From Microterricola viridarii (GTDB lineage Bacteria > Actinomycetota > Actinomycetes > Actinomycetales > Microbacteriaceae), in contig NZ_LT629742.1 of assembly GCF_900104895.1 (NCBI RefSeq), forward strand, positions 930,001 to 994,000: a stretch of DNA of 64,000 nt, written 5' to 3'. The translations under genes and the position numbers were made by a program. Shown here piece by piece: positions 10,089 to 42,220 of the stretch. Position 1 is the first letter of the stretch. Each line of letters starts with the position of its first letter. The notes beneath the pieces were generated by a model. The model was given only the letters and a program-made list of their open reading frames with translations, made no database searches and had not been told where the DNA came from.

Positions 10089-11636
10089 TCACGCCAAGCG
10101 GCTCTGCGCCGGCACGGTCGACCACAGTGCTCGCAGCGCCGGCCTGGGATCCGAGCGACCAATCGGGTTCTCGTCCCAGACCTGTGTGTGGCGGGACCCT
10201 TCGCGATACGTCGCCCAGCTGCCAGGGCGCCCGGTGCGGGCGAATGCCGCCCACGCCGTCATCATCCGCGAGCTCAGCTCCGGGGGCGGCTGCGTGCCGA
10301 CAAAGAACGCGGCCGCGGGTCGGTCAAGTGTGCCGAAAACGAATGGCAACTCCGCACCGTGGCAGGCGCCGAGACGACCGTTCATGGCCGGACTCGCCCA
10401 ATCGAAGAGGTAACTGAAATTGAGCCCCTCACCTCCCAGACGCGCCTCGAGGAGTCGATTGCTTGGCTGACGGTAGCTGCGATCACTCAGATACGCCTCC
10501 AGGGCCTCGGCCTCCGACGGGCGCTGGCCGACATCCGACTGCACTGCCCGCACGTACTGCTCCGGGCCGAGTACGCCGCCCAGATCGGCGGCGATCTCCC
10601 CGCGCAACGTGCGGGCCAGTTCCTTCGGGTCGCGCGGTGGGCCGAAGGCGAGGCTGAGGGACGCCTCGTTCCGGTTCGTGCCGATGAGGAGGTCGACGGT
10701 GCTATTCAAGCCGGCGCGGACGGCGTCCAGCGGCGAGGCAGGCAGCAGCGTGCCGTCGACGACCGGTTGGAACGGAACCGAGAGCCCCACCGTCCGCGAC
10801 TCGTACTCGAGGCAGACGGCGGACTGCGCTGCGAGAAGTTCGCTGGTCGGCCGGTCGAACACTGTGCTCGCCTCCGAACCATCGATGCCGAGGTGCCGCA
10901 GGATGTCGCAGGTCACCGCAGACGCTTCAGCAGGGGAGTGCACCCGTTCGGCGGTCCCGCTCTGCATGATCGCTCGATGGAAGAGCCCGGTCGCCGTCGG
11001 CACCCCGAGCAGGGTGCCGACGAGCGCCGCCCCAGCCGATTGCCCGCCGATGGTCACGTTCGAGGGATCGCCGCCGAACTGAGCGATCTCGTCGCGGACC
11101 CACCTCAGAGCGGTGATGAGGTCGTGCACGGCCCCGTTGCTGAGCCCGCTGCCGTGCGTGGCCCGCTCCAGGTGGAGGAAGCCGAAGACACCCAGCCGGT
11201 AGTTGACCGCGACAACGACGAGGTCACCGTCGGCAGCGAGCGCAGCGCCGTCGTGCAGGGGCTCGGCGTTGGAACCGATGATGTTGGCGCCCCCGTGGAC
11301 CCAGACCAGCACCGGCCGGCCCCGTTTCGCACCCGCCGGTGCCCAGATGTTCAGGTTGAGCCCGTGCAGGTCGTCCTGATGGCTGCTCGGTGAATCCGCG
11401 CCGCTGCCGAACGGGCTGGGGTTCTGTGGCACTGCGGGCCCCGGCCGACTGCAGTCACGCACTCCCGCCCACCCGTCGGGTGCCCGGCCGGGAGCGAACC
11501 GCAGCCGGCCGGGCCCCAGAGTGGCGTAGGGAACGCCGAGGAAGGCCTCCACCGGGCCGTGCGGAGTGGTGAGGCGGATGCCGGAGAGCGCCCCGGCGGA
11601 CGTATTGGCGTGCGGAACCTGCATGGCGCTCGGCAT
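10089..11636 (-). CDS. Type B carboxylesterase
   Basis: This 515-residue alpha/beta hydrolase of the carboxylesterase B family cleaves carboxylic esters. Visible are the oxyanion-hole segment VWVHGGAN, the nucleophile elbow GGQSAGA, the acid within GTNRNEAS and the catalytic His in ACHGAELPFVFG. There is no signal peptide, so it is probably cytoplasmic. ATG 11636 is preceded by AAGGAG; the frame stays open upstream without a better start. It diverges from the FAH operon across a region holding an IclR-type inverted repeat, so it may cleave an ester made in that pathway, for example a depside. Confidence 0.88.
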   Translation of the reverse strand: MPSAMQVPHANTSAGALSGIRLTTPHGPVEAFLGVPYATLGPGRLRFAPGRAPDGWAGVRDCSRPGPAVPQNPSPFGSGADSPSSHQDDLHGLNLNIWAPAGAKRGRPVLVWVHGGANIIGSNAEPLHDGAALAADGDLVVVAVNYRLGVFGFLHLERATHGSGLSNGAVHDLITALRWVRDEIAQFGGDPSNVTIGGQSAGAALVGTLLGVPTATGLFHRAIMQSGTAERVHSPAEASAVTCDILRHLGIDGSEASTVFDRPTSELLAAQSAVCLEYESRTVGLSVPFQPVVDGTLLPASPLDAVRAGLNSTVDLLIGTNRNEASLSLAFGPPRDPKELARTLRGEIAADLGGVLGPEQYVRAVQSDVGQRPSEAEALEAYLSDRSYRQPSNRLLEARLGGEGLNFSYLFDWASPAMNGRLGACHGAELPFVFGTLDRPAAAFFVGTQPPPELSSRMMTAWAAFARTGRPGSWATYREGSRHTQVWDENPIGRSDPRPALRALWSTVPAQSRLA

Positions 11637-11771
11637 GTGCTCTCCTTCGGACGATGTGCGGCCCTCCCACCGTAGAGAGCCGCCGCCGTGCGGAGCGGGG
11701 TGGCTGCCGGGCAATGGAAACGGGGAGCCAAACCACGGCTGCCGCGCCGGCCGGCAGCTCCGGGGTCGAAG

Positions 11772-11786
11772 TTCCATCCAATGAAA
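11772..11786. promoter_or_regulatory. Candidate IclR operator 1
   Basis: TTCCATCCAATGAAA is an imperfect inverted repeat, TTCCA-N5-TGAAA, in the region between the divergent esterase and FAH genes. It resembles the sites at 24782 and 25693 next to the iclR gene. Confidence 0.5.
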
Positions 11787-11871: not shown

Positions 11872-12720
11872 ATGAAGTTCATGGGCATCGCCGCCGATGA
11901 CAGCAACGACACTCGCATCGGCGTCGTCCAGGGCGACTCAGTCGCACCGCTCACCACGCTCGTCGAGTTCTGGCAAGACCCCTTCGCCTGGCAGCAGCGC
12001 GCAGCGGCCGGCGCCGCGGGTGCCGCGCTGCCGCTCAGCAGCGTCCGCGAGGTGCCACTGGTGCCCGCGTCCGCCCGCGTGCTCTGCGTCGGCCTGAACT
12101 ACAAGGCGCATGCGGCCGAGGGCAACTTCGAGGTGCCGGAGTACCCGACGATCTTCGGCCGGTGGACGGCCTCGCTCAGCGTCGGCGGCGTGCCGGCCCC
12201 CGTCCCCACCGGCGAGGCCGGCCTGGACTGGGAGGGCGAGATCGCCGCCGTCGTGGGAGCCCGCATCCAGTCAGCGGATGCCGCGACGGCCGAGTCGGCC
12301 GTGTTCGGCTACTCCGTGTTCAACGACCTCACCTCGCGCCGCGCGCAGAAGCTCACCGCGCAGTGGACGCTCGGCAAGAACGGCGACTTCTCCGGCCCGA
12401 TGGGGCCGCTCGTCAGCCGCGACGAGGTCGGCGACCTGCGAGACGGCCTGCAGCTGCGCACCCGCGTCAACGGCATCGAGGTGCAGAACGGCAACACCCG
12501 CGACATGATCTTCTCCGTCGGCGACATCCTCGCCCTCGTCAGCCAGACGCTCACCCTCCACCCGGGCGACGTGCTCGTCTCCGGCACGCCGGAGGGCGTC
12601 GGCTACGTGCGCACCCCGCCGTGGCTGCTGCAGCCGGGGGACAGCGTCGAGGTCGAGGTGGACCGGCTGGGAACGCTGACAACGCCGATCGTCAACGCGT
12701 CGGCCCGAGACCGTGCCTGA
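11872..12720 (+). CDS. Fumarylacetoacetate hydrolase family protein
   Basis: The 282-residue protein belongs to the FAH superfamily, Mg2+-dependent enzymes that cleave C-C bonds of beta-diketones or decarboxylate or hydrate ring-fission products of aromatic catabolism. It has an N-terminal lead domain, then VGLNYKAHA, PTIFGRW, the metal-binding acidic segment LDWEGEIAAVVG, GKNGDFSGPMGP, and SGTPEGVGY near the end. It is the first gene of a tightly coupled run reaching 19470. The neighbouring ring hydroxylase suggests it acts on an opened aromatic ring. Confidence 0.9.
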   Translation: MKFMGIAADDSNDTRIGVVQGDSVAPLTTLVEFWQDPFAWQQRAAAGAAGAALPLSSVREVPLVPASARVLCVGLNYKAHAAEGNFEVPEYPTIFGRWTASLSVGGVPAPVPTGEAGLDWEGEIAAVVGARIQSADAATAESAVFGYSVFNDLTSRRAQKLTAQWTLGKNGDFSGPMGPLVSRDEVGDLRDGLQLRTRVNGIEVQNGNTRDMIFSVGDILALVSQTLTLHPGDVLVSGTPEGVGYVRTPPWLLQPGDSVEVEVDRLGTLTTPIVNASARDRA

Positions 12721-12727: not shown

Positions 12728-14427
12728 ATGTCCGCAACGGCCAAGCCCGGCCCGAGCGCCCTCGCGGCGCTGCCCGACTTCGTGCCGGTGCTGATCGTCG
12801 GCGGGGGCCGAGCGGCCTGTTCCTGGCGGCCGACCTCGACCGGCGCGGCGTGCAGAGCCTCGTCATCGAGCCGCGGGACGCAGTGGACCATACCCGCCCG
12901 AAGGCGAAGACCACCAACGCCCGCACCATGAGTCACCTGCGCCGGCTCGGCCTGGCCGCGCCGCTGCGGAGCGCCGCCCCGCTCACGGCCGACTACTCAG
13001 AAGACGTCATCTTCTGCTCGAGCCTGACCGGTCACGAGCTGGCCCGCTTCCGCAACGCGTTCCAGCTGGCGCGGGGTCGCTACGAGCTGCAGCCCGAGTG
13101 CGGGCAGCAGGTCTCGCAGCCGATCGTCGAGGAGGTGTTGCGCGCCGGCGTCGACGCCTCGCCGCTGGCCGAGCTCGCGACCACCCTGCGGGTCGAGCGC
13201 ATCGACGCCGCACCGGGGCGCCGGCCGCGCGCCCTCGTCGTCGACGAGGACGGCGCCTCCCGCTGGGTCGAGTGCGAGCACCTCGTCGGCGCGGACGGCG
13301 GCTCCTCGCTGGCGCGGCACGAGCTCGGCATCGCCATGGAGGGCGGCTCGGCCGCCAAGTCCAACTTCAACTTCCTGTTCCGCTCGGAGCGCTTGGCCGA
13401 GGCGATCGCGCTGGAGCCTGCCGTGCAGTACTGGGTGCTCCGGCCGTCGGCGGCCGGCATGATCGGCCGGATGGACCTCGAGTCGACCTGGTGGGTCATC
13501 ATCCAGAACATCGAGCCCGACGCGCACCCCGACCCCGCAGCGTTGGTGACGGAACTCGTCGGCACCGACGTCGACATCGAGGTGATCGCGACCGACCGCT
13601 GGACGGCCAGGATGCTCCTCGCCGCCAGCTACGGCCGCGACGGCGTCTACCTGGTGGGCGATTCCGCACACCTCAACCCGCCGTGGGGCGGCCACGGCTT
13701 CAACACCTGCGTCGGTGACGCGGCCAACCTCTCCTGGAAGCTCGCGGCCAGCCTGGCAGGCTGGGCAGGCGAAGGCCTGCTGGCCAGCTACGAGCACGAG
13801 CGCCGCCCGATCGCGGCGCGCACCATCGCGGATGCCGCATCGAACGGCCGCAGCCTGGCCTCCGACTTCGCCCACAGCGTGCTCGACGACGACACGGATG
13901 CCGGGGCCGAGGCCCGCCGGCTGATGGCGCAAGACCTCGAGGTCAAGCGCAGCGAGTTCAGCTCGCTCGGGCTCGTGCTCGGCTACCAGTACCCCGGCTC
14001 GCCCATCGTCGTCGACGACGGCTCGGAGCAGATTCCCGAGCACCCGATCCACTACACCCCGTCGACCCGGCCCGGCAGCCTGCTTCCGCACGTCTGGGTC
14101 GGCGAGGAGTCGCTCTACGACGCCATCGGCCAGTGGTTCACGCTGTTGGTGGACGCTGCCGAGCCTCGCCTGGCCGAGTTCGCGCAGGCCGTGGACGCGG
14201 TGCGGGGGCAGACCGGGGTGCCGCTCACGCTGCTGCCGCTGGACTTCTCCGCCCACCCCGAGATCCCGTGGCAGGCGGCCGCCATCCTCGTGCGTCCGGA
14301 TCAGCACGTCGCCTGGCGCGGCGACGAGCCGGCAGCGGTGGCGGAGGCAGTCGCGGTCGCCGTCGGACGCGCCTCGGCGGCATCCGACACCCTGGACGAG
14401 CTGGAGGGCACCCACCGTGGCCGATGA
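12728..14427 (+). pseudogene. FAD-dependent aromatic monooxygenase with a one-base deletion
   Basis: The encoded protein would be a PheA/TfdB/MhpA-type flavin hydroxylase of about 566 residues. Reading from ATG 12728 gives LPDFVPVLIVGGG, then breaks at 12806-12810; adding one C there restores G-P-S-G-L-F-L-A-A-D-L, the FAD-binding GxGxxG fold, and continues without interruption to TGA 14427. Downstream are GADGGSSLARHELGI and YLVGDSAHLNPPWGGHGFNT (second FAD motif). The open part alone starts at about GTG 12850 and lacks the dinucleotide motif. The lesion is in a G5C2 run, so it could be a sequencing slip. The gene starts 8 bases after the FAH stop. Confidence 0.85.
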
Positions 14428-15652
14428 CGACTTCCGCGCACACCTCTTCCCCGTTGACGACCCCCGGATCAGCGCGTTCCGCGGGCTCAGCTATCGCGAG
14501 TACGCGGAGGCGGTCAAGAGCGACCCGTTCGCCGGGCCGATGATCGTGGACTGGGCCACCCGCTACCCGGTGCCCTACCGCGGCGTGAGCCACGACGGCA
14601 ACATCACCTCGCAGCCGCTGGCTGAGCTGCGCGCCGGCGAGGCCGCCCCCAACGCGGCCATGGTCGCGGCCGCCGAGCTGCTGCTGGCCGGGCTCTCCGC
14701 GCGGCAACGGGCCGACATCGGCTACCCGCTGCGCGCCAGCCAGTGGCGCAGCTGGGCCAACCCGGAGTTCCTGCAGCACGACACCGGCCTGCGCCTGGAA
14801 GACCTCGACCAGGTCTCGCGGCACCGCGCGCTCGAGCTCGTGCGCGCCAGCCTCAGCGAGCAGGGCTTCGAGTCCGTGAAGACCCTGATGTGGGTCAACG
14901 GCTACCTGGGCGAGACGATCGACCTCGCCAACGTCATGAACGACGCCAGTTACAACGTGGCCATCTATGGGACGCCCTCGACGAGCGAGCCGTGGGGGTG
15001 GCAGCTCTTCGGCCACCACCTGGCGCTCAACTGCGTCGTCGACGGCGAGCGGATGACGGTCTCGCCCGCGTTCCTTGGAGCGGAGCCCTCGCTGATCCTG
15101 GAGAGCCCGATCGGGCCCGTCGACGTCTTCGGGGCGCGCATCGCCCACGCCAGGGCGCTGATGGCCGGCCTGACACCGGCCGAGCAGGCCGAGGTGCTCA
15201 GCTACCCCGAGATGGTCGACCCGGCGATGCCGCTCGGCCGGCTGCACCCTGGCGATGAACGCCACCTCGGCGGCTGCTTCCAGGACAACCGCATCGTGCC
15301 GTTCGAGGGGATCCTCGTCGGCGACCTCGACGAGCCGACGCGCGCGGAGGTGAGCGCGGTCGCCGCCGCATTCCTCGACCACCTGCCCGCCGGCGTCGCC
15401 GCGGCCCGGCTGCGCGAGATCGAGTCGCGCTACGACGAGACCTGGTTCTCCTGGATCGGCGGCTGGGGCGCTGAGGACGCGTTCTACTTCCGGATCCAGA
15501 GCCCCGTCGTGATGCTGGAACTGGACCACCACTGCGGCGTCTTCCTCAGCAACCGCACCCCGGCGCAGTTCCACGTGCACACCGGCATCCGCACGCCCAA
15601 CGGCGGCGACTACGGCGGGCTCCTACGCGCGCCAGAGGCCGGCGCCTCGTGA
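14417..15652 (+). CDS. DUF3500 domain protein
   Basis: The 411-residue protein matches the DUF3500 family as I recall it: a soluble domain with YNVAIYGTPS, GWQLFGHHLALNCVV and, at the C-terminus, LDHHCGVF and FHVHTGIRTPNGGDYG. Several conserved His, Asp and Glu residues suggest a metal-dependent enzyme, but no reaction is known to me. GTG 14417 overlaps the end of the monooxygenase by 11 bases and its stop overlaps the next GTG, so it is produced with the catabolic enzymes. Confidence 0.85.
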   Translation: MADDDFRAHLFPVDDPRISAFRGLSYREYAEAVKSDPFAGPMIVDWATRYPVPYRGVSHDGNITSQPLAELRAGEAAPNAAMVAAAELLLAGLSARQRADIGYPLRASQWRSWANPEFLQHDTGLRLEDLDQVSRHRALELVRASLSEQGFESVKTLMWVNGYLGETIDLANVMNDASYNVAIYGTPSTSEPWGWQLFGHHLALNCVVDGERMTVSPAFLGAEPSLILESPIGPVDVFGARIAHARALMAGLTPAEQAEVLSYPEMVDPAMPLGRLHPGDERHLGGCFQDNRIVPFEGILVGDLDEPTRAEVSAVAAAFLDHLPAGVAAARLREIESRYDETWFSWIGGWGAEDAFYFRIQSPVVMLELDHHCGVFLSNRTPAQFHVHTGIRTPNGGDYGGLLRAPEAGAS

Positions 15653-16857
15653 GCGGGCAGGCCGGTGCGCTCGCCGGCACGGTCGTGCTCGACCTCAGCC
15701 GTGCCCTCGCCGGGCCGCACGCCGGCATGATGCTCGGCGACCTCGGCGCCCGGGTGATCAAGGTGGAGGCCCCGGGCAGCGGCGACGACACCCGCGGCTG
15801 GGGGCCGCCGTTCCTCGGCGAGCCCGACGCGGAGGAGTCGAGCTACTTCCTCTCCTGCAACCGCAACAAGGAGTCGATCGCGCTCGACCTCAAACACCCG
15901 GACGACCGCCGCGTGCTGGACGGCCTGATCCTCGAGGCTGACGTGCTGATCGAGAACTTCCGCACCGGGGTGATGGACCGCCTCGGATACTCGAGCGCCC
16001 GGCTGCTCGAGCTGAACCCGCGCCTCGTCATCCTCTCGATCACCGGCTTCGGGCACGACGGTCCGGAGGGCGGCCGCGCCGGCTACGACCAGATCGCCCA
16101 GGGCGAGGCCGGGCTCATGTCGATGACGGGCTCCGGCCCCGACGACCCGCAGCGGGTCGGCGTGCCGATCGGCGACCTGCTGAGCGGCATCTACGGCGCC
16201 TATGGGGTCGTCGCCGCGCTGCTCGAACGCGCAGAGACGGGCGCCGGCGGCGTCGTGCGCACCTCCCTGCTCTCCGCACTCGTCGGCGTCCACGCCTTCC
16301 AGGGCACCAGGCAGACGGTCGCCGGGGAGACCCCGCTGGCCCAGGGCAACCACCATCCGTCGATCGCCCCCTACGGGCTGTTCCGCTGTGCGGGCGGCGC
16401 CGTGCAGATCAGCGTCGGCAGCACGGCGCTCTGGGAGCGCTTCTGCGGGCGCTTCGGGCTGGATGCCGGCGCGCCCCGCTTCGCCACCAACGCCCTGCGG
16501 GTGGCGAACCGCGACGCGCTGATCGAGATCGTGGAGGCGGCGTTCGCGCCCTTCGAGGCGACGGATCTGCTCGGCCAGCTCGAGGCGGCCGGGATCCCCG
16601 CCGGCCGGGTGCGCACCCTCGACGAGGTCTACGCCTGGGACCAGGTCGCCTCGCAGGGCCTGCTGCTGGATGTCGAGCACTCGAGCCTCGGACCGCTCAC
16701 CCTGCCCGGCCCGCCGCTGCGCTTCTTCGGCACCGACGACGAGGTGACGTTCCGCGGGCACCGCGCGCCGCCCACGCTCGACCAGCACGGCCCGGCGATC
16801 CGCGCCTGGATCGCGGAGCGCCAGCTCCCCGAAAAGCAGAGCGCCGGCATTCTGTGA
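15649..16857 (+). CDS. CaiB/BaiF (family III) CoA-transferase
   Basis: The 402-residue protein moves CoA from one acyl-CoA to a free carboxylate. Family features are VVLDLSRALAGPHAGMMLGDLGA at the N-terminus (seen in two parts: VLDLSRALAGP and MMLGDLGARVIKVE), NRNKESIALDLK, ENFRTGVMDRLGY, GYDQIAQGEAGL, and the likely catalytic Asp near residue 175 in VPIGDLLSGIYGAYG. It starts at GTG 15649 (GTGA overlap) and overlaps the carboxyltransferase likewise. In context it probably activates an acid released from the aromatic substrate. Confidence 0.93.
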   Translation: MSGQAGALAGTVVLDLSRALAGPHAGMMLGDLGARVIKVEAPGSGDDTRGWGPPFLGEPDAEESSYFLSCNRNKESIALDLKHPDDRRVLDGLILEADVLIENFRTGVMDRLGYSSARLLELNPRLVILSITGFGHDGPEGGRAGYDQIAQGEAGLMSMTGSGPDDPQRVGVPIGDLLSGIYGAYGVVAALLERAETGAGGVVRTSLLSALVGVHAFQGTRQTVAGETPLAQGNHHPSIAPYGLFRCAGGAVQISVGSTALWERFCGRFGLDAGAPRFATNALRVANRDALIEIVEAAFAPFEATDLLGQLEAAGIPAGRVRTLDEVYAWDQVASQGLLLDVEHSSLGPLTLPGPPLRFFGTDDEVTFRGHRAPPTLDQHGPAIRAWIAERQLPEKQSAGIL

Positions 16858-18419
16858 GTTCCACGCGCACCCGTTTGCCCTCCCTCAGCGCCGGCGAGCT
16901 GCTCGAGCTCGTCGCCGACGCGGGCAGCTTCCGCTCCTGGGACGCGGCCGTGCCGCCCCGGCACGTGCAGCCCGGCTACGCCGCCGACCTGGAGCGGGCC
17001 CGCGCCCGGAGCGGATGCGACGAGTCGGTGCTGACCGGTGAGCTGCGCATCGACGGGCGCCGCGTCGCCGTGCTGGTCAGCGAGTTCGGCTTCCTCGGCG
17101 GCTCGATCGGCGTCGACGCCGCGGGCAGGCTCATCGCCGCCATCGAGCGGGCGACGCGGGAGCGGCTGCCGCTGCTGGCCGGACCGGCATCCGGCGGCAC
17201 CCGGATGCAGGAGGGCACGGCCGCGTTCGTGGCCATGGTCGGCATTGCCGCGGCGATCGCCGAGCACAAGAGTGCCGGCCTGCCGTACCTGGTCTACCTG
17301 CGGCATCCGACCACGGGCGGGGTGATGGCGAGCTGGGGCTCGCTCGGTCACGTGACCGTGGCGGAGCCCGGGGCGCTGCTCGGCTTCCTCGGCCCACGCG
17401 TCTACGCGGCCCTCTACGGCGAGCCGTTCCCCGACGGGGTGCAGACGGCCGAGAACCTCTACCGCAACGGCGTGATCGACGGCGTGATCGCGCCCGCCCA
17501 GCTGCCCCGGCTGGTCGCCCGGCTGCTCTCGGTGGTCGCGCCGCCAGAGGGCGCAGGTAGCCTCGGGGGAGACAGCGGGCAGTGCGACGGTCAGTACGAC
17601 GGTCCCGCCATCAGCGCCTCGGCCTCCATCGCCGCCTCGCGGGCGCGGGCGCGCCCCGGCGCACGCACCATCCTGCGCCACGCCGCGCGAGACATCGTGC
17701 CGCTGAGCGGCACCGGGCAGGGCGAGGCCAGCGAGGGCCTGCTCCTGGCCATCGCCCGCTTCGGCGCCGTGCCCTGCGTCGTGATCGCACAGGACCGCTA
17801 TGCCCAGCGCGCGGGCGCGCCGTGGGGCCCGGCCGCACTGCGACAAGCCCAGCGCGGCCAGCGGCTCTCGGCCGAGCTCGGCCTGCCCCTGGTGACGATC
17901 ATCGACACCCCGGGCGCCGCCCTCTCCCGGGAGGCGGAGGAGGGCGGGCTCGCGGGCGAGATTGCGCGCACCCTGGAGAGCCTGGTCGGGCACGAGCAGG
18001 CCACGGTCGCCGTGCTGCTCGGCGAGGGAACCGGCGGCGGCGCGCTCGCCCTGCTGCCAAGCGACGTGACGATCGCCGCCCAGCACGCCTGGCTGGCCCC
18101 GCTGCCGCCAGAGGGCGCCAGCGTCATCATGCACGGCGACACGGCGCACGCCTCCGCCATGGCCGAAGCCCAGGGCATCGGAGCGGTGGCGCTGCGCACG
18201 GCCGGGATCGTGGACTGGGTGGTGCCGGAACGCCCGGATGCCGCGCTGGAGCCCACCGAGTTCAGTCGGAGGATCGGCCGGGTGATCGAACGGCAGCTGC
18301 TCGAACTGGCCGCGGCCACGCCCGCCGAGCGGCTGCGCCGACGCCGGGGCCGCTACCGCGCGTTGGTGCGGCTGCCCGGGCAGGCGGCAGACTCAGGACG
18401 GGACACCGTCGGTGAATAG
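16854..18419 (+). CDS. Fused acyl-CoA carboxylase carboxyltransferase (beta-alpha)
   Basis: The 521-residue protein joins both halves of a carboxyltransferase. The AccD-like half (about 1-240) has FLGGSIGVDAAGRL, SGGTRMQEG, TTGGVMASWGSLG and AEPGALLGFLGPRVY. The AccA-like half (about 265-500) has IDTPGAALSREAEEGG, GEGTGGGALAL and PEGASVIMHGD. It would transfer carboxyl between carboxybiotin and an acyl-CoA, or run in reverse. No biotin carboxylase or biotin carrier gene lies in the window, so partners must be elsewhere. It lies directly after the CoA-transferase with a GTGA overlap. Confidence 0.88.
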   Translation: MSSTRTRLPSLSAGELLELVADAGSFRSWDAAVPPRHVQPGYAADLERARARSGCDESVLTGELRIDGRRVAVLVSEFGFLGGSIGVDAAGRLIAAIERATRERLPLLAGPASGGTRMQEGTAAFVAMVGIAAAIAEHKSAGLPYLVYLRHPTTGGVMASWGSLGHVTVAEPGALLGFLGPRVYAALYGEPFPDGVQTAENLYRNGVIDGVIAPAQLPRLVARLLSVVAPPEGAGSLGGDSGQCDGQYDGPAISASASIAASRARARPGARTILRHAARDIVPLSGTGQGEASEGLLLAIARFGAVPCVVIAQDRYAQRAGAPWGPAALRQAQRGQRLSAELGLPLVTIIDTPGAALSREAEEGGLAGEIARTLESLVGHEQATVAVLLGEGTGGGALALLPSDVTIAAQHAWLAPLPPEGASVIMHGDTAHASAMAEAQGIGAVALRTAGIVDWVVPERPDAALEPTEFSRRIGRVIERQLLELAAATPAERLRRRRGRYRALVRLPGQAADSGRDTVGE

Positions 18420-23519: not shown

Positions 23520-23532
23520 CCCGGCGCGAAAC

Positions 23533-34333: not shown

Positions 34334-35787
34334 GCCGTCCAATCCTGCCGGGCTTCCACCCGGATCCCACGATCTGCCGCGTCGGGGATGATTTCTACCT
34401 GGCCACGTCGAGCTTCGAGTACTTTCCGGGTGTCCCGCTCTTCCACAGCACCGACCTGCTCACCTGGACGCAGCTCGGCAACGTGCTGGACCGGCCATCC
34501 CAGCTGCCGTTGACCGCGCAGTCCGGCGGAATCTTCGCGCCGACGCTGCGACACCACGACGGCCGCTTCTGGATGGTCACCACCCAGATCGACCGCATTG
34601 CAGATGGCCACCTCATCGTCACGGCCACCGACCCGGCCGGGCCGTGGTCCGAGCCGGTCTTCACAACGGGCACGCTCGGCATCGACCCCGACCTGGCCTG
34701 GGACGATGACGGCGTCTGCCACCTGAGCTGGACACGGTTCTCGCCGACTGGCAGCGAGATCGTGCAGGCTCGCCTCGACCCGGAATCCGGAGCGCTGCTC
34801 TCCGAGCCGAAACCGCTCTGGAACGGCACCGGGCTCGCCCATGCCGAGGGGCCGCACCTCCACCGCCGCGGCGACTGGTGGTACCTGCTCATCGCCGAGG
34901 GCGGCACGGAGCGCGGCCACGCCGTCTCGATCGCCCGCTCGCGTGCCATCGACGGGCCGTTCGAGTCGAACCCGGCGAACCCGATCCTCTCCCACCGCAG
35001 CACCGATCACCCCGTGCAGAACACCGGCCACGCCGACCTCGTCGAGCTGCCGAACGGCGAGTGGGCGATGGTCTACCTCGGCGTGCGCCCGCGCGGCATG
35101 ACCCCGGGCTTCCACGTGAACGGTCGGGAGACCTTCCTCGCCGGCATCGACTGGGTCGACGACTGGCCCGTTGTCGACGAGTCACGCCATGTGGCGCCGC
35201 CCGCGCAGACCGACTTCGTCGATCGCTTCGAGGCCGACGAGCTGGACCCGCGGTGGATCTCGTCCGGCGGCCCGGCCGGGGCATGGCTCCCGCGGGGAGT
35301 GGCCGGCGCAGTGACGGTGCCGCCGCTGCGCGAGGCGCCCGACGCGTTCCTCGGCGTGCGCACCCGCGACGAGCGCTGGCAGGCCGAGCTCACCGTCGCC
35401 GCCGGCGATGCCGCCCTCGTGCTGCGCCTCGACGCGGCCCACCTGGTGCGGGTCGAGACGGATGCCGGCTGCATCCGTGCCATCGCCCGGATCGGCGGCA
35501 TCGACATCCCGCTCGGGGAGGAGACGCGGACGGCCGAGTGCGTCGTCCTTGCCATCAGGGCCGACGACGCACCGACGGGCATCGGCGTGCGCAGCGGCCC
35601 CGACATTCTGCGCCTCGGCGTCGTGCTGGCCGGCGTCTTCGCCGAGCTGGCCAGCCTCGACGGCCGGTACGTCTCGACCGAGGTTGCCGGTGGGTTCACC
35701 GGCCGCGTCATCGGTTTCTCGCCCGCAGCGCGCGGCGGCACGATCAGCACCTTCGCCACCCACCGAATCGAAGAGGACGACGCATGA
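34330..35787 (+). CDS. GH43 family glycosidase, copy 2
   Basis: The 485-residue enzyme has a GH43 propeller: base Asp12 in GFHPDPTICRVGDDFYLATS, modulating Asp in GIDPDLAWDDDG and acid Glu in HAEGPHLHRRG, followed by a concanavalin-like C-terminal domain (about 300-485). Family similarity begins right at the TTG codon 34330, which overlaps the rhamnosidase stop as TTGA and has GAGGG upstream, so I use this rare start. The next gene overlaps by ATGA. The probable substrates are xylosides or arabinosides. Confidence 0.88.
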   Translation: MSRPILPGFHPDPTICRVGDDFYLATSSFEYFPGVPLFHSTDLLTWTQLGNVLDRPSQLPLTAQSGGIFAPTLRHHDGRFWMVTTQIDRIADGHLIVTATDPAGPWSEPVFTTGTLGIDPDLAWDDDGVCHLSWTRFSPTGSEIVQARLDPESGALLSEPKPLWNGTGLAHAEGPHLHRRGDWWYLLIAEGGTERGHAVSIARSRAIDGPFESNPANPILSHRSTDHPVQNTGHADLVELPNGEWAMVYLGVRPRGMTPGFHVNGRETFLAGIDWVDDWPVVDESRHVAPPAQTDFVDRFEADELDPRWISSGGPAGAWLPRGVAGAVTVPPLREAPDAFLGVRTRDERWQAELTVAAGDAALVLRLDAAHLVRVETDAGCIRAIARIGGIDIPLGEETRTAECVVLAIRADDAPTGIGVRSGPDILRLGVVLAGVFAELASLDGRYVSTEVAGGFTGRVIGFSPAARGGTISTFATHRIEEDDA

Positions 35788-36731
35788 GCATCATCACCAT
35801 CCCCGAGACAGGCTACGTTTTCCCGCAGTTCCGCCCGCCGGTCTCCGCGGGCCGCTCGCCGGTTCCTGCCGGAACGACGGCACATCTCGGCCTGAGCTAC
35901 GCGCTGCTGGAGGGCTATCGCGAGTTGGGCCTCGACCTGTACGTCCCGACGGATCGCCCCGGCCCGGTTCCCTGCGTCATCTGGATCCACGGTGGGGCCT
36001 GGCTGAGTGGCGACCGGCGCTACTTCCCCGACATCTGGCCGGAGGGGATCGTGTTCGACGGGCTCATCGCGCGCGGCTATGCCGTCGCGACCATCGACTA
36101 CCGGCATGCGCGCGAGGCGAGCTTCCCCGCGCAGCTGCACGACGCCAAGGCGGCCGTGCGCTACCTGCGGCACTTCGCCGCGGAGCTCGGCATCGACCCG
36201 ACGCGTTTCGCCGTGTGGGGAGAGTCGGCCGGTGGCCATCTCGCGGCCCTCGTCGGCCTGGTATCCGGCCGGCCAGAGCTCGAGGGCTCGATCGGGGTCG
36301 CGGAGGGCGACAGCTCCGTGTCGGCCGTCGTCGACTGGTACGGCGTCAGCGACGTGGCCACGATGCCCGCCTTCGCCGACGCGGCCCTCCCGGATGCCGA
36401 CCCCCACGCCGAGGCGGAGGGCGCCTGGCGCGGCGAGGAGCCGATCGACGTGGTGCTCGCAGGGGTGGCCGACCGTGAGGCGGCGGAGCGGGACTTCTCT
36501 CCCGTGAGCCATGTCTCGGCCTCCGCCCCGCCGTTCCTCCTCGTGCACGGTGACTCCGACGGGCTCGTGCCCATCGGGCAGAGCGTGCTGCTGCATGAGC
36601 GCCTGCGCGCCGCCGGCGCACCGGTGCACTTCCACCCCGTCCCGGGTGCCGACCACGTCTGGATCGGCGTCGACATGCAACCGCTCGTGACCGAGGCACT
36701 CGACTTCCTCGAGGGGGTGCTGGGCGGCTAG
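35784..36731 (+). CDS. Alpha/beta hydrolase, carbohydrate-esterase-like
   Basis: The 315-residue hydrolase belongs to the same BD-FAE/Aes-like group as the gene at 18529: VIWIHGGAWLSGDRR, nucleophile in GESAGGHLAALVG, acid in LVHGDSDGLVP and His in GADHVW. It probably removes acyl groups that decorate the glycosides. No signal peptide is present. Its TAG stop shares the palindrome CTAG (36728-36731) with the stop of the converging nucleoside hydrolase. Confidence 0.9.
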   Translation: MSIITIPETGYVFPQFRPPVSAGRSPVPAGTTAHLGLSYALLEGYRELGLDLYVPTDRPGPVPCVIWIHGGAWLSGDRRYFPDIWPEGIVFDGLIARGYAVATIDYRHAREASFPAQLHDAKAAVRYLRHFAAELGIDPTRFAVWGESAGGHLAALVGLVSGRPELEGSIGVAEGDSSVSAVVDWYGVSDVATMPAFADAALPDADPHAEAEGAWRGEEPIDVVLAGVADREAAERDFSPVSHVSASAPPFLLVHGDSDGLVPIGQSVLLHERLRAAGAPVHFHPVPGADHVWIGVDMQPLVTEALDFLEGVLGG

Positions 36732-37615
36732 ACGAGACGCCGCGCTCCGGGCCCTCGCCGTTCGTGCAGGCGCAGCTTGGCCAGCATGTCGCCGACGATG
36801 AGCCGGAAGTCGATGTCACGGTAGACCCGGCGCTCCGCGCGGCCGGGCACGGCGGGCGCCTCGTCATACGCGCTGGAGAGGTCGCTCAGCGCGGTGATCA
36901 GCACGGACGGGCTATCGCCGAGGGGCCAGTTGTCGGCCAACTCGATGAAGTCGGGAATCGGCAGCGCCACGAAGCGCTCCCACAGCCAGGCGCCGAGCGG
37001 GCCGCTGCCGCCGAGATCGTGTTCCAGCTCGGCGACCGAGTAGGTGCAGCGGCGGTAGGTCTCAGCGGGGAACTGCAGGACAGAGAGCTCCGCGTGACCC
37101 AGCACAAACTCGGCGGCGTCCGGGTCGGTGTCCCGGTTGTACTCCGGCGCCGCGGGGTCCACGGTCCCGCCGATCCAGACGAGTGTCAACGTCGCCGCGA
37201 TATCCGGCGCGTGGCGGAGCGCCTGCGCGACGTTGGTCAGGGGCCCGCCGCAGACGAGGAACAGCGGCAGGGCGTCGGCGCGTCTGGCCTCGACGACGAT
37301 GGCCTCGGCGGCAGCGGAGGGAACCTCCACGCCGCGGTCGGCGTCGTAGGAGCTCTCGCTGCCCGCCCACACTCGGGGCGGCAGTGGCAGCGACATCAGC
37401 GCGATCAGTTCTTCGGCAAGCCGGGCACCATCGGCGGCCGACGTCGGCGCCTGGAACATCGGGCTGATATGCGAGCTGGTCACGGCGACGACGCGGTTGG
37501 CCGGGGAGAGGAGGTGGTGGGCGAGCGCGACCAGCCCGTCGGGGTCGCCTGACCAGTCGTTGTCGATGACGACCCGGCACCGCTCGGCCACGTGCAGCGA
37601 CGACTTCTGTGGCAT
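36728..37615 (-). CDS. Nucleoside hydrolase-like protein (IunH superfamily)
   Basis: The 295-residue protein has an N-terminal Asp cluster (VIDNDWSGDPDGLVAL) that replaces the usual DxDxGxDD calcium site of nucleoside hydrolases, plus PLFLVCGGPLTNVAQAL and WIGGTVDP. The divergent Asp motif means an N-ribosidase role is uncertain; it might cleave another glycosidic bond. ATG 37615 has AGAGG upstream. It lies 68 bases after the GH1 gene on the same strand and is likely cotranscribed with it. Confidence 0.82.
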   Translation of the reverse strand: MPQKSSLHVAERCRVVIDNDWSGDPDGLVALAHHLLSPANRVVAVTSSHISPMFQAPTSAADGARLAEELIALMSLPLPPRVWAGSESSYDADRGVEVPSAAAEAIVVEARRADALPLFLVCGGPLTNVAQALRHAPDIAATLTLVWIGGTVDPAAPEYNRDTDPDAAEFVLGHAELSVLQFPAETYRRCTYSVAELEHDLGGSGPLGAWLWERFVALPIPDFIELADNWPLGDSPSVLITALSDLSSAYDEAPAVPGRAERRVYRDIDFRLIVGDMLAKLRLHERRGPGARRLV

Positions 37616-37683: not shown

Positions 37684-38934
37684 CTAGGCGGCCACGGCAG
37701 CGCGCTGGGCGGCGACGATCCCGGCGTAGACGCCGGCGCTCGGCTTGGCCGTGCGCTCGAAGGTGGTGCGGTCCACGGAGTGCAGGCCGAGCTGGTGGCC
37801 GTAGCCGAAGACCCACTCGAAGTTGTCCATCAGGGTCCAGTGGCAGTAGCCGAGCACGGGCACGCCGTCGGAGATGGCCTCCAGGAGCCCCGCAAGCGAG
37901 GGTTCGATGAAGGCAGCGCGCACTGCATCGTCGGGGGTGCTCGCACCATGCTCGGTGACGAGGACCGGCACGCCGCTCACCGCGTGGGCGTAGCGAGCGG
38001 CGCCGCCGAGGGAGGCCGCATCCACGGCGGATCCCATCTCGTTGATGATGGAGCCCGCGGCAGGGGGCAGCTGGCCGTCGGGCCCGAACCAGAGACGCTC
38101 GTAGTTCTGCACGCCGATGAAGTCGTCCGTGCGGGCCAGGCGCAGCCAGTGGTCGTAGACGTCCGCGCGCTTGGCGTCGCGGGTGGACTCCCCGCCCTCC
38201 GCCGCACAATCGTCGGAGATCGCGATCGAGAGGCCCACCGGCAGCTCGGGGCGGCGCTGCTTGATCGCGGCCTTGGCCGCCAGGTGGGCGTTCGTCATCC
38301 CGATCTGCATGGCGTCGAAGTCCTCCGCGACCATGACGTTGCCCGAGCGGTACTTCTCGACACCGGCGGCGGCGGATGCCGCGTCCAGCGTGGCCCTGGT
38401 GAGGTCGGCGACGAAGGCGGGCAGACCAGCCCAGGCAAGCATCTGCGGCAGGTTTGGCTCGTTGAAGGTCACGGCCGCCGCGATCCGGTCGCCGAAACGG
38501 TCCATCACCACGCCGCAGAACCGCGCGAACAACGCCGGCGCCTCGGCGTCGAGCCAGGCGCCGCGCTTCGCGAACCAGTGCGGCTGGGTGAAGTGGCTGA
38601 AGGTGACGAGCGGGGCGAGCCCGCGCTCGATGCACCCGTTGACAACGGCCTCGTAGTGGGCCAGCGCCTCCTCGTTGAACTCGCCATTGGCGGGCTCGAT
38701 CCTGGCCCACTCCACCGAGAAGCGGTAGGCGTTCAGCCCCATCCCGGCGACGAGGTCGAGATCCTCGCTCCAGCGCTCGTAGCCCATGCAGGCCGGGCCG
38801 GAGGGCTCGGCGAAGACTGTGGGTGTGACGTTCTCCAGGAACCAGGTGTCGCTGTCGCGGTTGTCTCCCTCGCTCTGGTGGCCTGCCGTTGCCACGCCCC
38901 AGAAGAATGGTGCGGGATAGATGCCGAGAACCAT
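37684..38934 (-). CDS. GH1 beta-glucosidase-like enzyme
   Basis: The 416-residue (beta/alpha)8 barrel hydrolyses beta-glucosides or related glycosides. It starts FFWGVATAGHQSEG (family N-terminal signature), has GLNAYRFSVEWARIEP, the acid/base Glu in TFNEPN and the nucleophile Glu in VTEHGAS, then HWTLMDNFEWVFGYG. The nucleophile loop TEHG differs from the common TENG. No signal peptide is present. I used ATG 38934, with AGGAAG upstream. It could remove the glucose left after rhamnose is clipped from rutinose-type sugars. Confidence 0.92.
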   Translation of the reverse strand: MVLGIYPAPFFWGVATAGHQSEGDNRDSDTWFLENVTPTVFAEPSGPACMGYERWSEDLDLVAGMGLNAYRFSVEWARIEPANGEFNEEALAHYEAVVNGCIERGLAPLVTFSHFTQPHWFAKRGAWLDAEAPALFARFCGVVMDRFGDRIAAAVTFNEPNLPQMLAWAGLPAFVADLTRATLDAASAAAGVEKYRSGNVMVAEDFDAMQIGMTNAHLAAKAAIKQRRPELPVGLSIAISDDCAAEGGESTRDAKRADVYDHWLRLARTDDFIGVQNYERLWFGPDGQLPPAAGSIINEMGSAVDAASLGGAARYAHAVSGVPVLVTEHGASTPDDAVRAAFIEPSLAGLLEAISDGVPVLGYCHWTLMDNFEWVFGYGHQLGLHSVDRTTFERTAKPSAGVYAGIVAAQRAAVAA

Positions 38935-39057: not shown

Positions 39058-39072
39058 TTCCGTTGATTGGGA
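39058..39072. promoter_or_regulatory. Weak fourth IclR-type site
   Basis: TTCCGTTGATTGGGA fits TTCCA-N5-TGGAA with one mismatch in each arm and lies 124 bases upstream of the GH1 start. It could be chance. Confidence 0.25.
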
Positions 39073-39169: not shown

Positions 39170-42100
39170 CTACTCCGCGGGCACCGACCGGGCCTGTGCC
39201 CGATTCCCCGGCCGGCGCGCGCCGCGAGCCCAGGGGAGCGCCAGCAGGAGCCCGAGCAGGATCAACACACCGCCGGCCGCGGCCGCGTACCACGGCGTCG
39301 CCAGGGGGATCTCGAGGTAGACCGTCAGGCCGAGGATGCGCGAGAGCCCCCACGGCAGCAGAGACATCTCGTCGTTCCAAGCGGTGAGCGCCTGCTCCAG
39401 CCCGATCGCGCCGAGGAAGCCGCCCAGGGCTGCGAGCACGAAGCCGGAGGCGGCGAGAACCGTCCCCGTTGCCCGACGTGCGCCGATCTGGCCGCCGAGC
39501 GCCCACGCGGCGGCGACGATCACCCAGAGGAACAGGGCGAAACCGAGCGTGATGTAGGCCGTCCGTGCGAGTGGGTCGGTCCAGAAGCCGAACCAGTAGT
39601 AGCCGGGCCCGCGCACGGCGAGCACCGCCAGCAGCAGCAGCGTGCGCAGCAGGACGGCCCCACCCGCCGCCGCGATGATCGGCCAGGCCGAGCGCCGACG
39701 GAGTGCGAGCGCGATGACCGCGGCGAACAGCAGCCAGGCCGCCGTGGTGAACAACACGTGTGACGGCGCCAGGAACCAGGTGTAGATGCCGCGGCTGAGC
39801 AGCAGCAGGGTCGCCGGCACGGCGACGAGCAGCACCCGTGAGCCGGTGGAGAGGCCGGCGACGGCATCCGCCGCGCGCCACGGGCACGTGCCGGCGAGCC
39901 ACAGCGCCCGCGCCGCCGCGGCGCCCGGCCAGGACGCGAAGCGCGGCCAGCGGGCCAGCATGCCGAGCGCGAGCCAGAGCACCAGCAGCGCGCCGGCCAC
40001 CCGGGCCAGCCACGCCATCGGCAGGTCGAGGGACGCCCGCGTCTCGCCGATTCGAGCCGCCGTCAGGTTGAAGGCGGGCAGCTCGATCGAGGTGCCGTAG
40101 CGGGCCTCATGCTCGGCCGCGAAGCCGTCGAACGCCGTGCGGGCGGCCGCCCACTGCTCCCGCGCCTCGGCGGAGCCGGTGTCGAGCCACTGGCTGTGCC
40201 GCAACACCATGGTGCGGTAGGAGCCGAGCGTCTCGAACAGGTTCACCTGGTAGTCGAGGGTGTCCACGAACTGCGCGTGCAGCGCTGGGTCCTTCCACGT
40301 CGACGGGTCGGATGCCGCCACGGCGTCGCGCATCGAGACGGCGGTGCGCACGGCGTCGGCGCCGCCGGCGATGGCGGCCTCGAGCTCTGCGCGGCTCACC
40401 TCGTAGATCACCGAGAGCACGGCGCTGTCGCCGGTGAGGATGTCCCACTCGAAGATCCACATCATGGGCGGCGGCTCGAGACCGAGCGCCTCGACCCGTT
40501 GCTCGGCGAACGGCCCGATGTAGAGGCCGGCGGTCACGGCATCCCGGGACTGGGACATCGCCGTCGCCAGGGTCTGCGCGGTGGCCGGGTCATCGGAGAA
40601 CCACTCGTGGATCCAATCGGCCGTGATCCGCGCCGGATCCTGCTCCGGGTCACGGGCCAGCCGCACCGCGAGCTCGGTGTTCAGCTCGTAGAGCTGCCAG
40701 AAGCCGGCCTTCAGTTCGAGCGTCAGGGGGCCGGCACGCCACGGCCCACCGTCCTGGGTCCAGGTCCAGATCCCCTCGACCTGCGGGTTGGCGGCGATGA
40801 AGTGGGTGAGCGCGCTCTGGTAGAGCGAGCCGAGGTCGTTCGGCAGTGCGCCGAAGGCCTCGAACTCGCGCCGGCTCTGAAACTCGACGATGCGCCGCTG
40901 GCTGCCGGACTCCAGCGTGGTGTTCAACGGCAGGTAGCTGTAGAAGTCGCCGAGCGTGTACTTCGTCGAGACGACGAGCGCCGGCGAGTCGATGCCGTCG
41001 AGCACCTGGGCGTAGGAGTCGGGATTCGTGTGCATGTCGCCGACCGCGCCGACACCGACACTCCAGGAGCGGAAGATCACCTCGCGCCCGGCCGACTCGG
41101 CCTGCGCGCTGAACGTGGTGAGCATGGCGCGCACCGCGTCGACCGAGGTCACGGCCAGGTCAGAGTAGTAGTCCCACCCCGGCAGGTCGTAGACCCGGCC
41201 GGCCTCGCCGATGCGCACGACAACGCCGTCGACGGCGGGCAGGGCGGTGTACAGCTCGTCGAGCCCGGCCCGGTAGACGTCCCAGAACGCCGAGTCGTCA
41301 GTCGCGAGGCCGCCAAAGCTCCGCTCGAAGTACTGGGCGAGCGGATCGCTCAGCGCGAGCATGTCGGTGCGCATGTACACCTTCATGCCCAGCTCCTGTG
41401 CGTCGTCGAAGAGCGGGCCGAAGGCCCGCTGCATCGCGAGTGCGCGCTCGCGGTGTGGGTCTCCGGCCGGGTACACGGCCGCGCCGTCCTCGACACCGTC
41501 GAAGGTGACGTACTCAATGAAGCCGGGCACGGCAATCGCGTTGTAACCGAGGGCGAGGGAGTGGCGAACGAAGGCGTGGAACTCGCTCGTCGCCTGCGCC
41601 ATCTCCTCGGCATCGATGTAGGGCGCCTCGGCGAGCATCACGTCTTTGAACGCGTTGGAGTTGTGGGAGTAGTCGGTGCCCGTCGCGTAGGCCGCGGCAT
41701 CCGCCTTCACACCGACTGCGCCGAGGTCGACCATGCGAAACGGCAGGGCGGAGTCGATGGTGCGGCCGAGGTTCTCGGTGATGGGGCGGCCGGCCCGCAC
41801 CGCGGCGGCCAGGTCATAGACGCCGAGCACGGCGCCGGCGCGGCTGGGCGCGGTGATGGTGATCGCCTGCTCCGTGCCCGAGAGCGTATAGCCCTGCTCG
41901 CTCTCCGGCTCGAGGGCTTCGTAGCGCACGGAGAGCGTCGTCGTGCCCGTCGTGCCGCCGGCTCCGGCCGCGGCCTCCCGCAACGCGTCGAGCGCGGTGT
42001 TGGTGCGCAGGTCGTCGGGGGCGTCGATGCTCGTGAACGCTGGCGGCAGCACGACGGGTGCGTCCGGCGCCACGGTCAGCTCTTCCACGGGGATCCCCAC

Positions 42101-42220
42101 CGCGGGTTGAGCGCTCAGGCCGAGGGCGTCGGACACCTGCACGGCCACGCCGGCGCCGAGCGCGAGGAGCGCGGCCGCAGTGCCGAGGAGCGTCAATCTG
42201 TGGCGCAACTCACGTTTCAC
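39170..42220 (-). CDS. Large membrane-anchored GH67/GH20-like glycosidase candidate
   Basis: The 1016-residue protein starts at GTG 42220. One N-terminal helix (about 8-30) is followed by a long extracytoplasmic part. Residues about 60-170 look like the accessory domain before GH67/GH20/GH84 barrels (TITAPSRAGAVLGVYDLAAA, then LPFRMVDLGA). About 190-600 resembles a TIM barrel (GYNAIAVPGF, MKVYMRTDMLAL, GVVVRIGEAGRVYDLPGWDY, VEGIWTWTQDGGPW). About 735-1000 holds roughly seven transmembrane helices, unusual for a glycosidase. Family and substrate cannot be fixed by eye. The upstream ribosome site is weak. Confidence 0.7.
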   Translation of the reverse strand: MKRELRHRLTLLGTAAALLALGAGVAVQVSDALGLSAQPAVGIPVEELTVAPDAPVVLPPAFTSIDAPDDLRTNTALDALREAAAGAGGTTGTTTLSVRYEALEPESEQGYTLSGTEQAITITAPSRAGAVLGVYDLAAAVRAGRPITENLGRTIDSALPFRMVDLGAVGVKADAAAYATGTDYSHNSNAFKDVMLAEAPYIDAEEMAQATSEFHAFVRHSLALGYNAIAVPGFIEYVTFDGVEDGAAVYPAGDPHRERALAMQRAFGPLFDDAQELGMKVYMRTDMLALSDPLAQYFERSFGGLATDDSAFWDVYRAGLDELYTALPAVDGVVVRIGEAGRVYDLPGWDYYSDLAVTSVDAVRAMLTTFSAQAESAGREVIFRSWSVGVGAVGDMHTNPDSYAQVLDGIDSPALVVSTKYTLGDFYSYLPLNTTLESGSQRRIVEFQSRREFEAFGALPNDLGSLYQSALTHFIAANPQVEGIWTWTQDGGPWRAGPLTLELKAGFWQLYELNTELAVRLARDPEQDPARITADWIHEWFSDDPATAQTLATAMSQSRDAVTAGLYIGPFAEQRVEALGLEPPPMMWIFEWDILTGDSAVLSVIYEVSRAELEAAIAGGADAVRTAVSMRDAVAASDPSTWKDPALHAQFVDTLDYQVNLFETLGSYRTMVLRHSQWLDTGSAEAREQWAAARTAFDGFAAEHEARYGTSIELPAFNLTAARIGETRASLDLPMAWLARVAGALLVLWLALGMLARWPRFASWPGAAAARALWLAGTCPWRAADAVAGLSTGSRVLLVAVPATLLLLSRGIYTWFLAPSHVLFTTAAWLLFAAVIALALRRRSAWPIIAAAGGAVLLRTLLLLAVLAVRGPGYYWFGFWTDPLARTAYITLGFALFLWVIVAAAWALGGQIGARRATGTVLAASGFVLAALGGFLGAIGLEQALTAWNDEMSLLPWGLSRILGLTVYLEIPLATPWYAAAAGGVLILLGLLLALPWARGARRPGNRAQARSVPAE

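Follow-up and report, generated by a model that had tools for sequence, protein, structure and literature searches.

A predicted regulon for flavonol-glycoside use in Microterricola, with a DUF3500 protein as candidate A-ring-opening enzyme

We analyzed a 64,000-nucleotide stretch of the genome of Microterricola viridarii (G000:C1:930001-994000; hereafter the window), which belongs to a genome of 3.84 Mb on a single contig, and describe in it a cluster of glycosidase, esterase, importer and aromatic-degradation genes that, together with a distant operon, probably forms one regulon for the complete aerobic use of flavonol glycosides. The parts of this reading differ in confidence. Homology and comparison between genomes argue strongly that the locus is genuine, is conserved and constitutes a catabolic regulon for flavonol glycosides, its co-regulation being probable. 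That the A ring of the flavonol is degraded through 1,2,3,5-tetrahydroxybenzene and a protein of the DUF3500 family is likely but unproven, and an ending in malonate is plausible and evenly poised. Taken as one proposition, that Actinobacteria hold a 1,2,3,5-tetrahydroxybenzene pathway in which DUF3500 (GHH/E/HxH) forms a distinct class of ring-opening dioxygenase, with a quercetinase that has one active cupin, malonate activation and a two-locus regulon mineralising flavonol glycosides, is a claim to which we give equal credence either way. Gene calls and start positions, in the window and in its relatives, were predicted by script rather than taken from annotation.

In the proposed pathway, an ATP-binding cassette (ABC) importer would take up a flavonol glycoside such as rutin or quercitrin, and glycoside hydrolases of families GH78, GH1 and GH43 would remove rhamnose, glucose and pentoses, exposing the 3-hydroxyl group required by the quercetinase. 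This bicupin enzyme, by way of its C-terminal metal site, would cleave the C ring to carbon monoxide and a depside, which a BD-FAE hydrolase would split into protocatechuate (B ring) and 2,4,6-trihydroxybenzoate (A ring); both products are also described, in the available part of PMC12921883, as arising by non-enzymatic fragmentation of quercetin. A group A FAD monooxygenase (FMO) would then act on 2,4,6-trihydroxybenzoate by hydroxylation/oxidative decarboxylation, or on phloroglucinol formed from it, to give 1,2,3,5-tetrahydroxybenzene, which by our own derivation is exactly what results when the carboxyl group of 2,4,6-trihydroxybenzoate is swapped for a hydroxyl. DUF3500, probably metal-dependent through its invariant His and Glu residues, would open this ring, and intradiol opening followed by tautomerisation would yield 2,4-dioxoadipate (again our own derivation), a 2,4-dioxo acid that the hydrolase of the fumarylacetoacetate hydrolase (FAH) family would cut into pyruvate and malonate. 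Malonate would be converted to malonyl-CoA by the CoA-transferase and malonyl-CoA to acetyl-CoA by the AccDA-like carboxyltransferase, while protocatechuate would pass to a distant pcaHGBDC operon under the same operator.

The cluster recurs in related genomes and loci, which are referred to below by G and L numbers, respectively. The sister genome G001 carries it nearly complete at 79.5-99% identity, and in G004, of the same genus, the same run is found for as much of it as lies on its contig, which begins inside the FMO gene. In the window, DUF3500 stands within the gene order FAH, FMO, DUF3500, CoA-transferase, carboxyltransferase, alpha/beta hydrolase, GH78. In G012, from another genus of the same family, the cluster is present at 45-81% identity and in a different order, comprising the ABC system, second esterase, GH1, quercetinase, first esterase, GH78, carboxyltransferase, CoA-transferase, DUF3500, FMO, FAH and IclR genes, and G011 holds a minimal set of FAH, FMO, DUF3500, esterase, quercetinase and GH1. 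Against G001, the ratio of nonsynonymous to synonymous substitution rates (dN/dS) lies between 0.02 and 0.28 across fourteen cluster genes. The original prediction, made from the window alone as a candidate island for degrading flavonoid or phenolic rhamnosides, had proposed a look at synteny in relatives, and the cluster is indeed conserved across several genera. Its list of island members stands in part: two of them, the esterase at 10089-11636 and the GH43 gene at 21906-23519, have no match in the G001 locus, nor has the nucleoside hydrolase gene at 36728-37615, and all three were rejected as core parts for this reason; this GH43 gene was found in neither G001 nor G004.

To see how far DUF3500 and the quercetinase travel together, we surveyed 396 genomes of the order. 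DUF3500 (E ≤1e-30) occurs in 24 of them, and these were divided, after the survey hits had been viewed, into a near clade (identity of at least 47%; 13 genomes) and a far clade (46% or less; 11 genomes). The quercetinase, at the same threshold, occurs in 16 genomes, namely in all 13 of the near clade versus 3 of the 383 others (Fisher p 7e-22). As genomes are not independent, the figure obtained after collapsing to genera is the fairer one, and it gives 5/5 near-clade genera versus 3/105 (p 4.6e-7). Both statistics take the two surveys as covering the same 396 genomes, and the handles agree where both show. In G392 and G663 the module is kept although the quercetinase gene lies on another contig, and the coupling is therefore not just physical linkage. 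The neighborhoods examined were 20 regions from the 24 DUF3500 genomes, together with L054 (G323) and the window (G000); those of G703 and G499 and the second DUF3500 hit of G685 were left out.

With its residues 16-323, the quercetinase homolog (flavonol 2,4-dioxygenase; 23608-24690, minus strand) matches YxaG (1y3t), the quercetinase of Bacillus subtilis, at an E of 6.9e-62, and its C-terminal half also matches the Streptomyces monocupin QueD and the Aspergillus quercetinase. This supports the quercetinase-like assignment of the original prediction, and the match over the chain rules out a sugar isomerase, which that prediction had named as the finding that would speak against it, as well as an AraC-like protein. 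Among 18 homologs (that of the window and 17 from other loci), the metal ligands H, H, E, H of the C-terminal cupin are kept in all 18 and the ligand set of the N-terminal cupin is intact in none, and the C-terminal cupin should thus be the active site. QueD, according to the available text of PMC4416304, resembles the C-terminal domain of YxaG. An ortholog of the first BD-FAE hydrolase (18529-19470, plus strand; PF20434, 6.5e-50) adjoins the quercetinase gene in 11 other loci (G012, G011, G007, Arthrobacter luteolus, A. gallicola, L065, L066, L067, L069, L070 and L071), which makes this protein the best candidate for the depside esterase; in L062 and L063 the quercetinase neighbors differ and are not the BD-FAE esterase.

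Quercetinases accept several flavonols and BD-FAE esterases act on many esters. This breadth leaves room for a different reading, in which the island serves other plant phenolic glycosides or esters, such as phenylpropanoid rhamnosides or tannins, with the quercetinase acting on the side or in detoxification. In line with such a role, 3 of the 16 quercetinase genomes are without a near-clade DUF3500, and in G007 and the two Arthrobacter loci the quercetinase and esterase genes come with no FMO, FAH or DUF3500 match in the stretches read. However, the module is coupled to the quercetinase in 13/13 near-clade genomes, the two acids expected from the depside fit the two downstream modules and the operator is common to the pca operon, and we regard this alternative as rather improbable.

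The proposed A-ring module consists of the FAH-family hydrolase (11872-12720, plus strand; PF01557, 2e-60), the FMO (12728-14427, plus strand, with an open reading frame at 12850; PF01494, 3.4e-48, and PF21274) and the DUF3500 protein (14417-15652, plus strand; PF12006, 1.9e-93). The FMO scores 525.4 bits with NF004780, above the cutoff of 445. FMO and FAH orthologs stand beside DUF3500 in 12/12 near-clade neighborhoods (L061-L071 and the window) with differing gene orders, counting a partial FAH match in L068 and an FMO in two pieces in L070; outside the order survey, G012 and G011 hold all three together, and L053, of the same class, has a DUF3500 gene (52%) beside a FAH ortholog (55%) and an IclR gene. 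In L064 the module runs FAH, DUF3500, MFS, FMO, CaiB, ACC, and no further ring-cleaving gene was recognized in it, Pfam having been run on the MFS gene alone. At the residue level, H200, H201, E368, H386, H388 and R392 are invariant in an alignment of 18 DUF3500 sequences, and 47/47 sequences, some of only ~25% identity, share two neighboring His, one Glu, an HxH pair and one Arg without exception. Such His and Glu residues suit a metal site, although this is not proof of one.

In the far clade, none of the nine loci L072-L080 has an FMO match at E 1e-6, while FAH-like genes and different FAD proteins are repeatedly found there. That the same pairing persists with different partners points to a role for DUF3500 in the degradation of aromatics. 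In L078 (3262-10061) and L054 (1538-10800), far-clade DUF3500 genes are found with FAD hydroxylase, NTF2-like, FAH, RidA and amidohydrolase genes, as recognized by eye and, for L078, by Pfam; L078 has two different DUF3500 genes, and its NTF2-like gene is a DUF4440. These clusters possibly represent another aromatic pathway. In L073 (1605-16690), a far-clade DUF3500 gene is accompanied by genes for a glyoxalase-superfamily protein, an HpaI-type aldolase, an FAA_hydrolase-type protein and a dienelactone hydrolase. DUF3500 is also present in Corynebacterium glutamicum, a genetically tractable host.

It should be considered that a flavoprotein can itself open a ring, as the flavin-dependent MHPC oxygenase does. 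The cluster may thus serve flavonol glycosides while the ring is opened by its own flavoprotein or by an enzyme encoded elsewhere, with DUF3500 being a later hydrolase, isomerase or decarboxylase. Ring opening by DUF3500 is itself a prediction, the L073 cluster just described combines DUF3500 with a dienelactone hydrolase and with a protein of the glyoxalase superfamily, and three intradiol dioxygenase domain matches lie elsewhere in the genome, two of them being pcaH and pcaG. Nonetheless, DUF3500 is the unassigned enzyme that accompanies FMO and FAH in all 12 near-clade neighborhoods, the GHH, E and HxH residues that never vary in it fit metal binding, and a DUF3500 protein of Aspergillus nidulans has been proposed, in the available text of PMC12388069, to open 1,2,3,5-tetrahydroxybenzene to 5-hydroxydienelactone; the proposed fungal counterpart of the window protein is AN10530. 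We thus consider a later role for DUF3500 unlikely and retain it as the candidate ring opener. In Rhodococcus qingshengii RL1, a DUF3500 gene lies a few locus tags from genes for a hydroxyphenylpropionate-type hydroxylase, an MFS transporter and an FCD-domain protein (PMC8416521, from the portion available).

Downstream of DUF3500 lie the genes for a class III CoA-transferase (15649-16857, plus strand; CoA_transf_3, PF02515, 4.5e-112), with a succinate--hydroxymethylglutarate CoA-transferase among its closest solved chains, and for a fused AccD/AccA-like carboxyltransferase (16854-18419, plus strand; PF01039, Carboxyl_trans, and PF03255, ACCA). Wherever either ortholog reaches at least 50% identity the two are found together (the window, G001, G004, G012, L063 and L064), and this joint occurrence fits a conversion of malonate via malonyl-CoA to acetyl-CoA. 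In G001 the carboxyltransferase gene (L015) has one in-frame stop, which is either real decay or a sequence error.

The different operons of the cluster share a palindromic operator pattern, TTCCA-N5-TGGAA, for which the window has three sites at one mismatch or fewer (0.25 expected; 0/100 shuffles reach 3), all of them in cluster promoters and given here without strand: TTCCATCCAATGAAA (11772-11786) lies in the gap from which the esterase and FAH operons diverge and is found upstream of FAH in G001 too (L015:8733), TTCCACTGAATGGAA (24782-24796) lies upstream of the quercetinase gene and GTCCAATCAATGGAA (25693-25707) between the IclR gene and the ABC operon. A weaker site, TTCCGTTGATTGGGA (39058-39072, likewise without strand), lies upstream of GH1. 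Over the whole genome, two mismatches or fewer give 26 strand-hits at 21 places, of which the three at one mismatch or fewer are all in the cluster; gene context was examined at the cluster and pca sites. A matrix built from the Microterricola sites and run on 12 sources, 9 of them loci outside its construction, found nine sites scoring at least 19 in the G012, G058, G506 and G530 loci, 50-136 bp upstream of cluster genes, and no site above 15 in L020, L064, L065 and L070; the tested loci had previously been inspected with the simple pattern, and L066-L069 and L071 were not scanned. The L065 module contains a GntR-type regulator gene. In the window, the IclR-family protein (24810-25661, minus strand; recognized by Pfam) is the likely common regulator and would bind these sites; its best curated match is PcaR/PcaU/PobR (TIGR02431), at 99.1 bits below the cutoff of 284.75.

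Genes pcaH, G, B, D and C form one run (L086:10698-14613) more than 600 kb from the cluster. pcaH, pcaG and pcaC score above the NCBIfam cutoffs, and pcaB (290.5 of 355.75) and pcaD (213.4 of 255.85) score below them, yet pca models are their best named hits and the genes are adjacent. One of the remaining genome-wide operator places, within TTCCCATTGAATGGGAA, ends ~70 bp before the likely pcaH ATG, and the site upstream of pcaH scores 19.9 in G000, 19.9 in G004 and 18.2 in G001. In G001, pcaH (G001:C1:752808-753460) was matched in two pieces, which again may be real decay or sequence error.

Several observations weigh against the proposed regulon and pathway and need to be kept in mind when referring to these results. 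The operator pattern is weakly enriched when relaxed: at two mismatches or fewer the window has 12 sites versus 6.0 expected, a number that 3/100 shuffles reach, and the 26 genome-wide strand-hits compare with 14 for a reversed-pattern control. The nearest pca operator in G012 (score 20.3) is ~1.4 kb upstream of pcaH, and the ~1.5 kb pcaH flanks of G506 and G530 have none (best 12.7 and 11.0). For DUF3500, the quercetinase occurs in 0/11 far-clade genomes, and the family is therefore not flavonol-specific; a far relative with a solved structure, 9x86 'Amc20' (profile E 6.6e-63), is counted on the same side, the single-sequence structure model has a mean per-residue confidence (pLDDT) of 33.4, and the FAD hydroxylase of L053 is a distant relative of the window enzyme (26% over half of the query). 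The FMO frame itself is broken near 12797-12810 in the present assembly, where the open reading frame at 12850 is without the N-terminal FAD-binding stretch, encoded in another frame from ~12728. The gene is intact in G001, and as its dN/dS against G001 is 0.108, the frameshift appears either to have arisen recently or to reflect an error in the sequence.

Also to be counted on this side, the carboxyltransferase scores under the accD and accA cutoffs (TIGR00515, 159.7 of 317.45; TIGR00513, 94.5 of 319.3) and under that of malonate_beta (TIGR03133, 33 bits of 278.15), and, among the 11 loci L061-L071, just 2 contain the CoA-transferase/carboxyltransferase pair, which is also missing from G011. 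With no curated cutoff reached and the pair in so few loci, the malonate step is the least certain one. A housekeeping acetyl-CoA carboxylase was rejected as the identity of the carboxyltransferase, given the same scores and a sole paralog elsewhere in the genome of 30% identity, and partial. Finally, no RhaA-type rhamnose isomerase was found in the genome despite four GH78 matches.

The lack of RhaA fits a further alternative, that of a pectin or xylan side-chain locus (rhamnogalacturonan, arabinoxylan) which merely lies beside aromatic genes and in which the FAH hydrolase ends an oxidative breakdown of L-rhamnose. GH78 and GH43 enzymes are common in such loci, and the best NCBIfam match of the FAH protein is 2,4-didehydro-3-deoxy-L-rhamnonate hydrolase (NF053535; 158.8 bits, below the cutoff of 500). 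Its solved relatives include, in second place, a 2,4-diketo-acid hydrolase of the same 2,4-didehydro-3-deoxy-L-rhamnonate-hydrolase type and, in third place, an HpaG isomerase/decarboxylase, with acylpyruvase FAHD1 ranking lower. However, in L064, L065 and L067 the FAH gene stays with FMO and DUF3500 where the stretch read has no GH78 match, and with the score below cutoff we rejected it as a rhamnose-pathway enzyme. Within the cluster, Pfam recognizes no further enzyme of oxidative rhamnose breakdown, and one operator precedes both sugar and aromatic operons. A side-chain locus is, in our view, very improbable, and use of flavonol glycosides remains the preferred reading.

As to the remaining genes, all enzyme classes named in the original prediction were found in place by Pfam (two GH78, two GH43, a GH1, three esterase-type hydrolases, an ABC importer and one IclR regulator). 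The type-B carboxylesterase (COesterase; 10089-11636, minus strand; PF00135, 1.2e-90) faces the operator at 11772. Both GH78 alpha-L-rhamnosidases, A (19467-21878, plus strand) and B (31508-34333, plus strand), have four GH78 Pfam domains above cutoff each and do not reach the NCBIfam cutoffs for full-length rhamnosidases (1720-1800 bits). Of the GH43 glycosidases, both on the plus strand, that at 21906-23519 (PF04616, 4.4e-76) is accessory and that at 34330-35787 (PF04616, 1.8e-85) is genus-conserved. The GH1 beta-glucosidase (37684-38934, minus strand; PF00232, 2.2e-56; 81% identity in G012) scores 206.6 bits with TIGR03356, under the cutoff of 478.5. Signal peptides were judged absent from the glycosidases, by eye alone. 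The importer spans 25865-31457, all on the plus strand, and comprises a family 5 solute-binding protein (SBP_bac_5; 25865-27430; PF00496, 1.9e-59), a permease (27503-28444; PF00528), a fused permease-ATPase (28441-30459; PF00528, PF00005 and PF08352) and an ATPase (30456-31457; PF00005 and PF08352). A second BD-FAE alpha/beta hydrolase (35784-36731, plus strand; PF20434, 1.4e-58) has 71% identity in G012. Cluster membership is not established for the nucleoside-hydrolase-like protein (36728-37615, minus strand; recognized by Pfam) and for a 1016-amino-acid protein (39170-42220, minus strand), which has no Pfam or NCBIfam match, is 93% identical in G001 and has, by eye, possible membrane segments near its C-terminus. 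The GH43 and quercetinase genes, which converge, are separated at 23519-23608 by a very strong hairpin (-73.3 kcal/mol over 101 nt, with a z of -9.5) that is probably a two-way terminator.

The stop-start overlaps that the original prediction described are present at 14417, 15649, 16854 and 19467, and that at 18412 hinges on the start of the hydrolase (18412 or 18529). Its outline, from import through sugar removal, quercetinase, esterase and ring cleavage to CoA intermediates, agrees with the homologies, the conservation in several genera and the operator. Other parts needed amending: no known A-ring-opening enzyme is among the genes it listed, the DUF3500 gene now put forward as candidate having been omitted; the B-ring product is served by the remote pca operon under the same operator; and the hydroxylase is frameshifted in the present assembly.

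Comparison with known systems places the cluster among several partial counterparts. Like YxaG (1y3t/2h0v), the window cupin is a bicupin over nearly the full chain with its C-terminal ligands kept; in contrast to YxaG, it lies in a catabolic regulon, and an intact N-terminal metal site is found in none of the 18 actinobacterial homologs examined. QueD of Streptomyces sp. FLA matches the C-terminal cupin of the window protein but is a monocupin, and the available text on it mentions no comparable regulon. In the isoflavone (ifc) cluster of Variovorax and the naringenin (fde) cluster of Herbaspirillum, a glyoxalase-family protein is the ring-cleaving enzyme. Both are cases of bacterial flavonoid catabolism with an FAD monooxygenase, but theirs is paired with that glyoxalase-family protein (PMC11069340); the available text of this source contains neither 'DUF3500' nor 'fumarylacetoacetate', and quercetinases appear in it as the work of other groups. 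The beta-ketoadipate (pca) pathway is shared in that pcaHGBDC is found here under the same operator, and differs in lying far away and serving the B ring only. In the anaerobic gallate/phloroglucinol routes (transhydroxylase, phloroglucinol reductase), 1,2,3,5-tetrahydroxybenzene is likewise a bacterial metabolite, but it acts there as a hydroxyl-transfer co-substrate and reductive steps precede ring opening (PMC13039779, in the part available). In a partial literature search covering few subscription papers, we recognized neither a bacterial version of the tetrahydroxybenzene pathway nor a joined flavonol operon.

The reading offers a testable function for the uncharacterised DUF3500 family in bacteria and an answer to the fate of the A ring after quercetinase, and the prediction is specific, with each step assayable (substrate, intermediates, products, regulator and operator). 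The closest likeness to the A-ring module is the fungal 1,2,3,5-tetrahydroxybenzene central pathway associated with Martins et al. 2024, the cluster of which is said to have a monooxygenase and an FAH-like gene and, reportedly, to encode a short protein as well. In the fungal pathway, as far as the available description goes, a decarboxylating monooxygenase acts upstream of the DUF3500 ring opener. A 2026 database paper, in the part available, calls this pathway restricted to fungi, and the reading proposed here would extend to bacteria a central aromatic pathway so far called fungal-only. The two systems are alike in that DUF3500 is clustered with a monooxygenase and an FAH-like gene, the fungal gene content again being as reported; they differ in that the window set is actinobacterial and is joined to a quercetinase, an esterase, glycosidases, an ABC importer and a CoA-transferase/carboxyltransferase pair.

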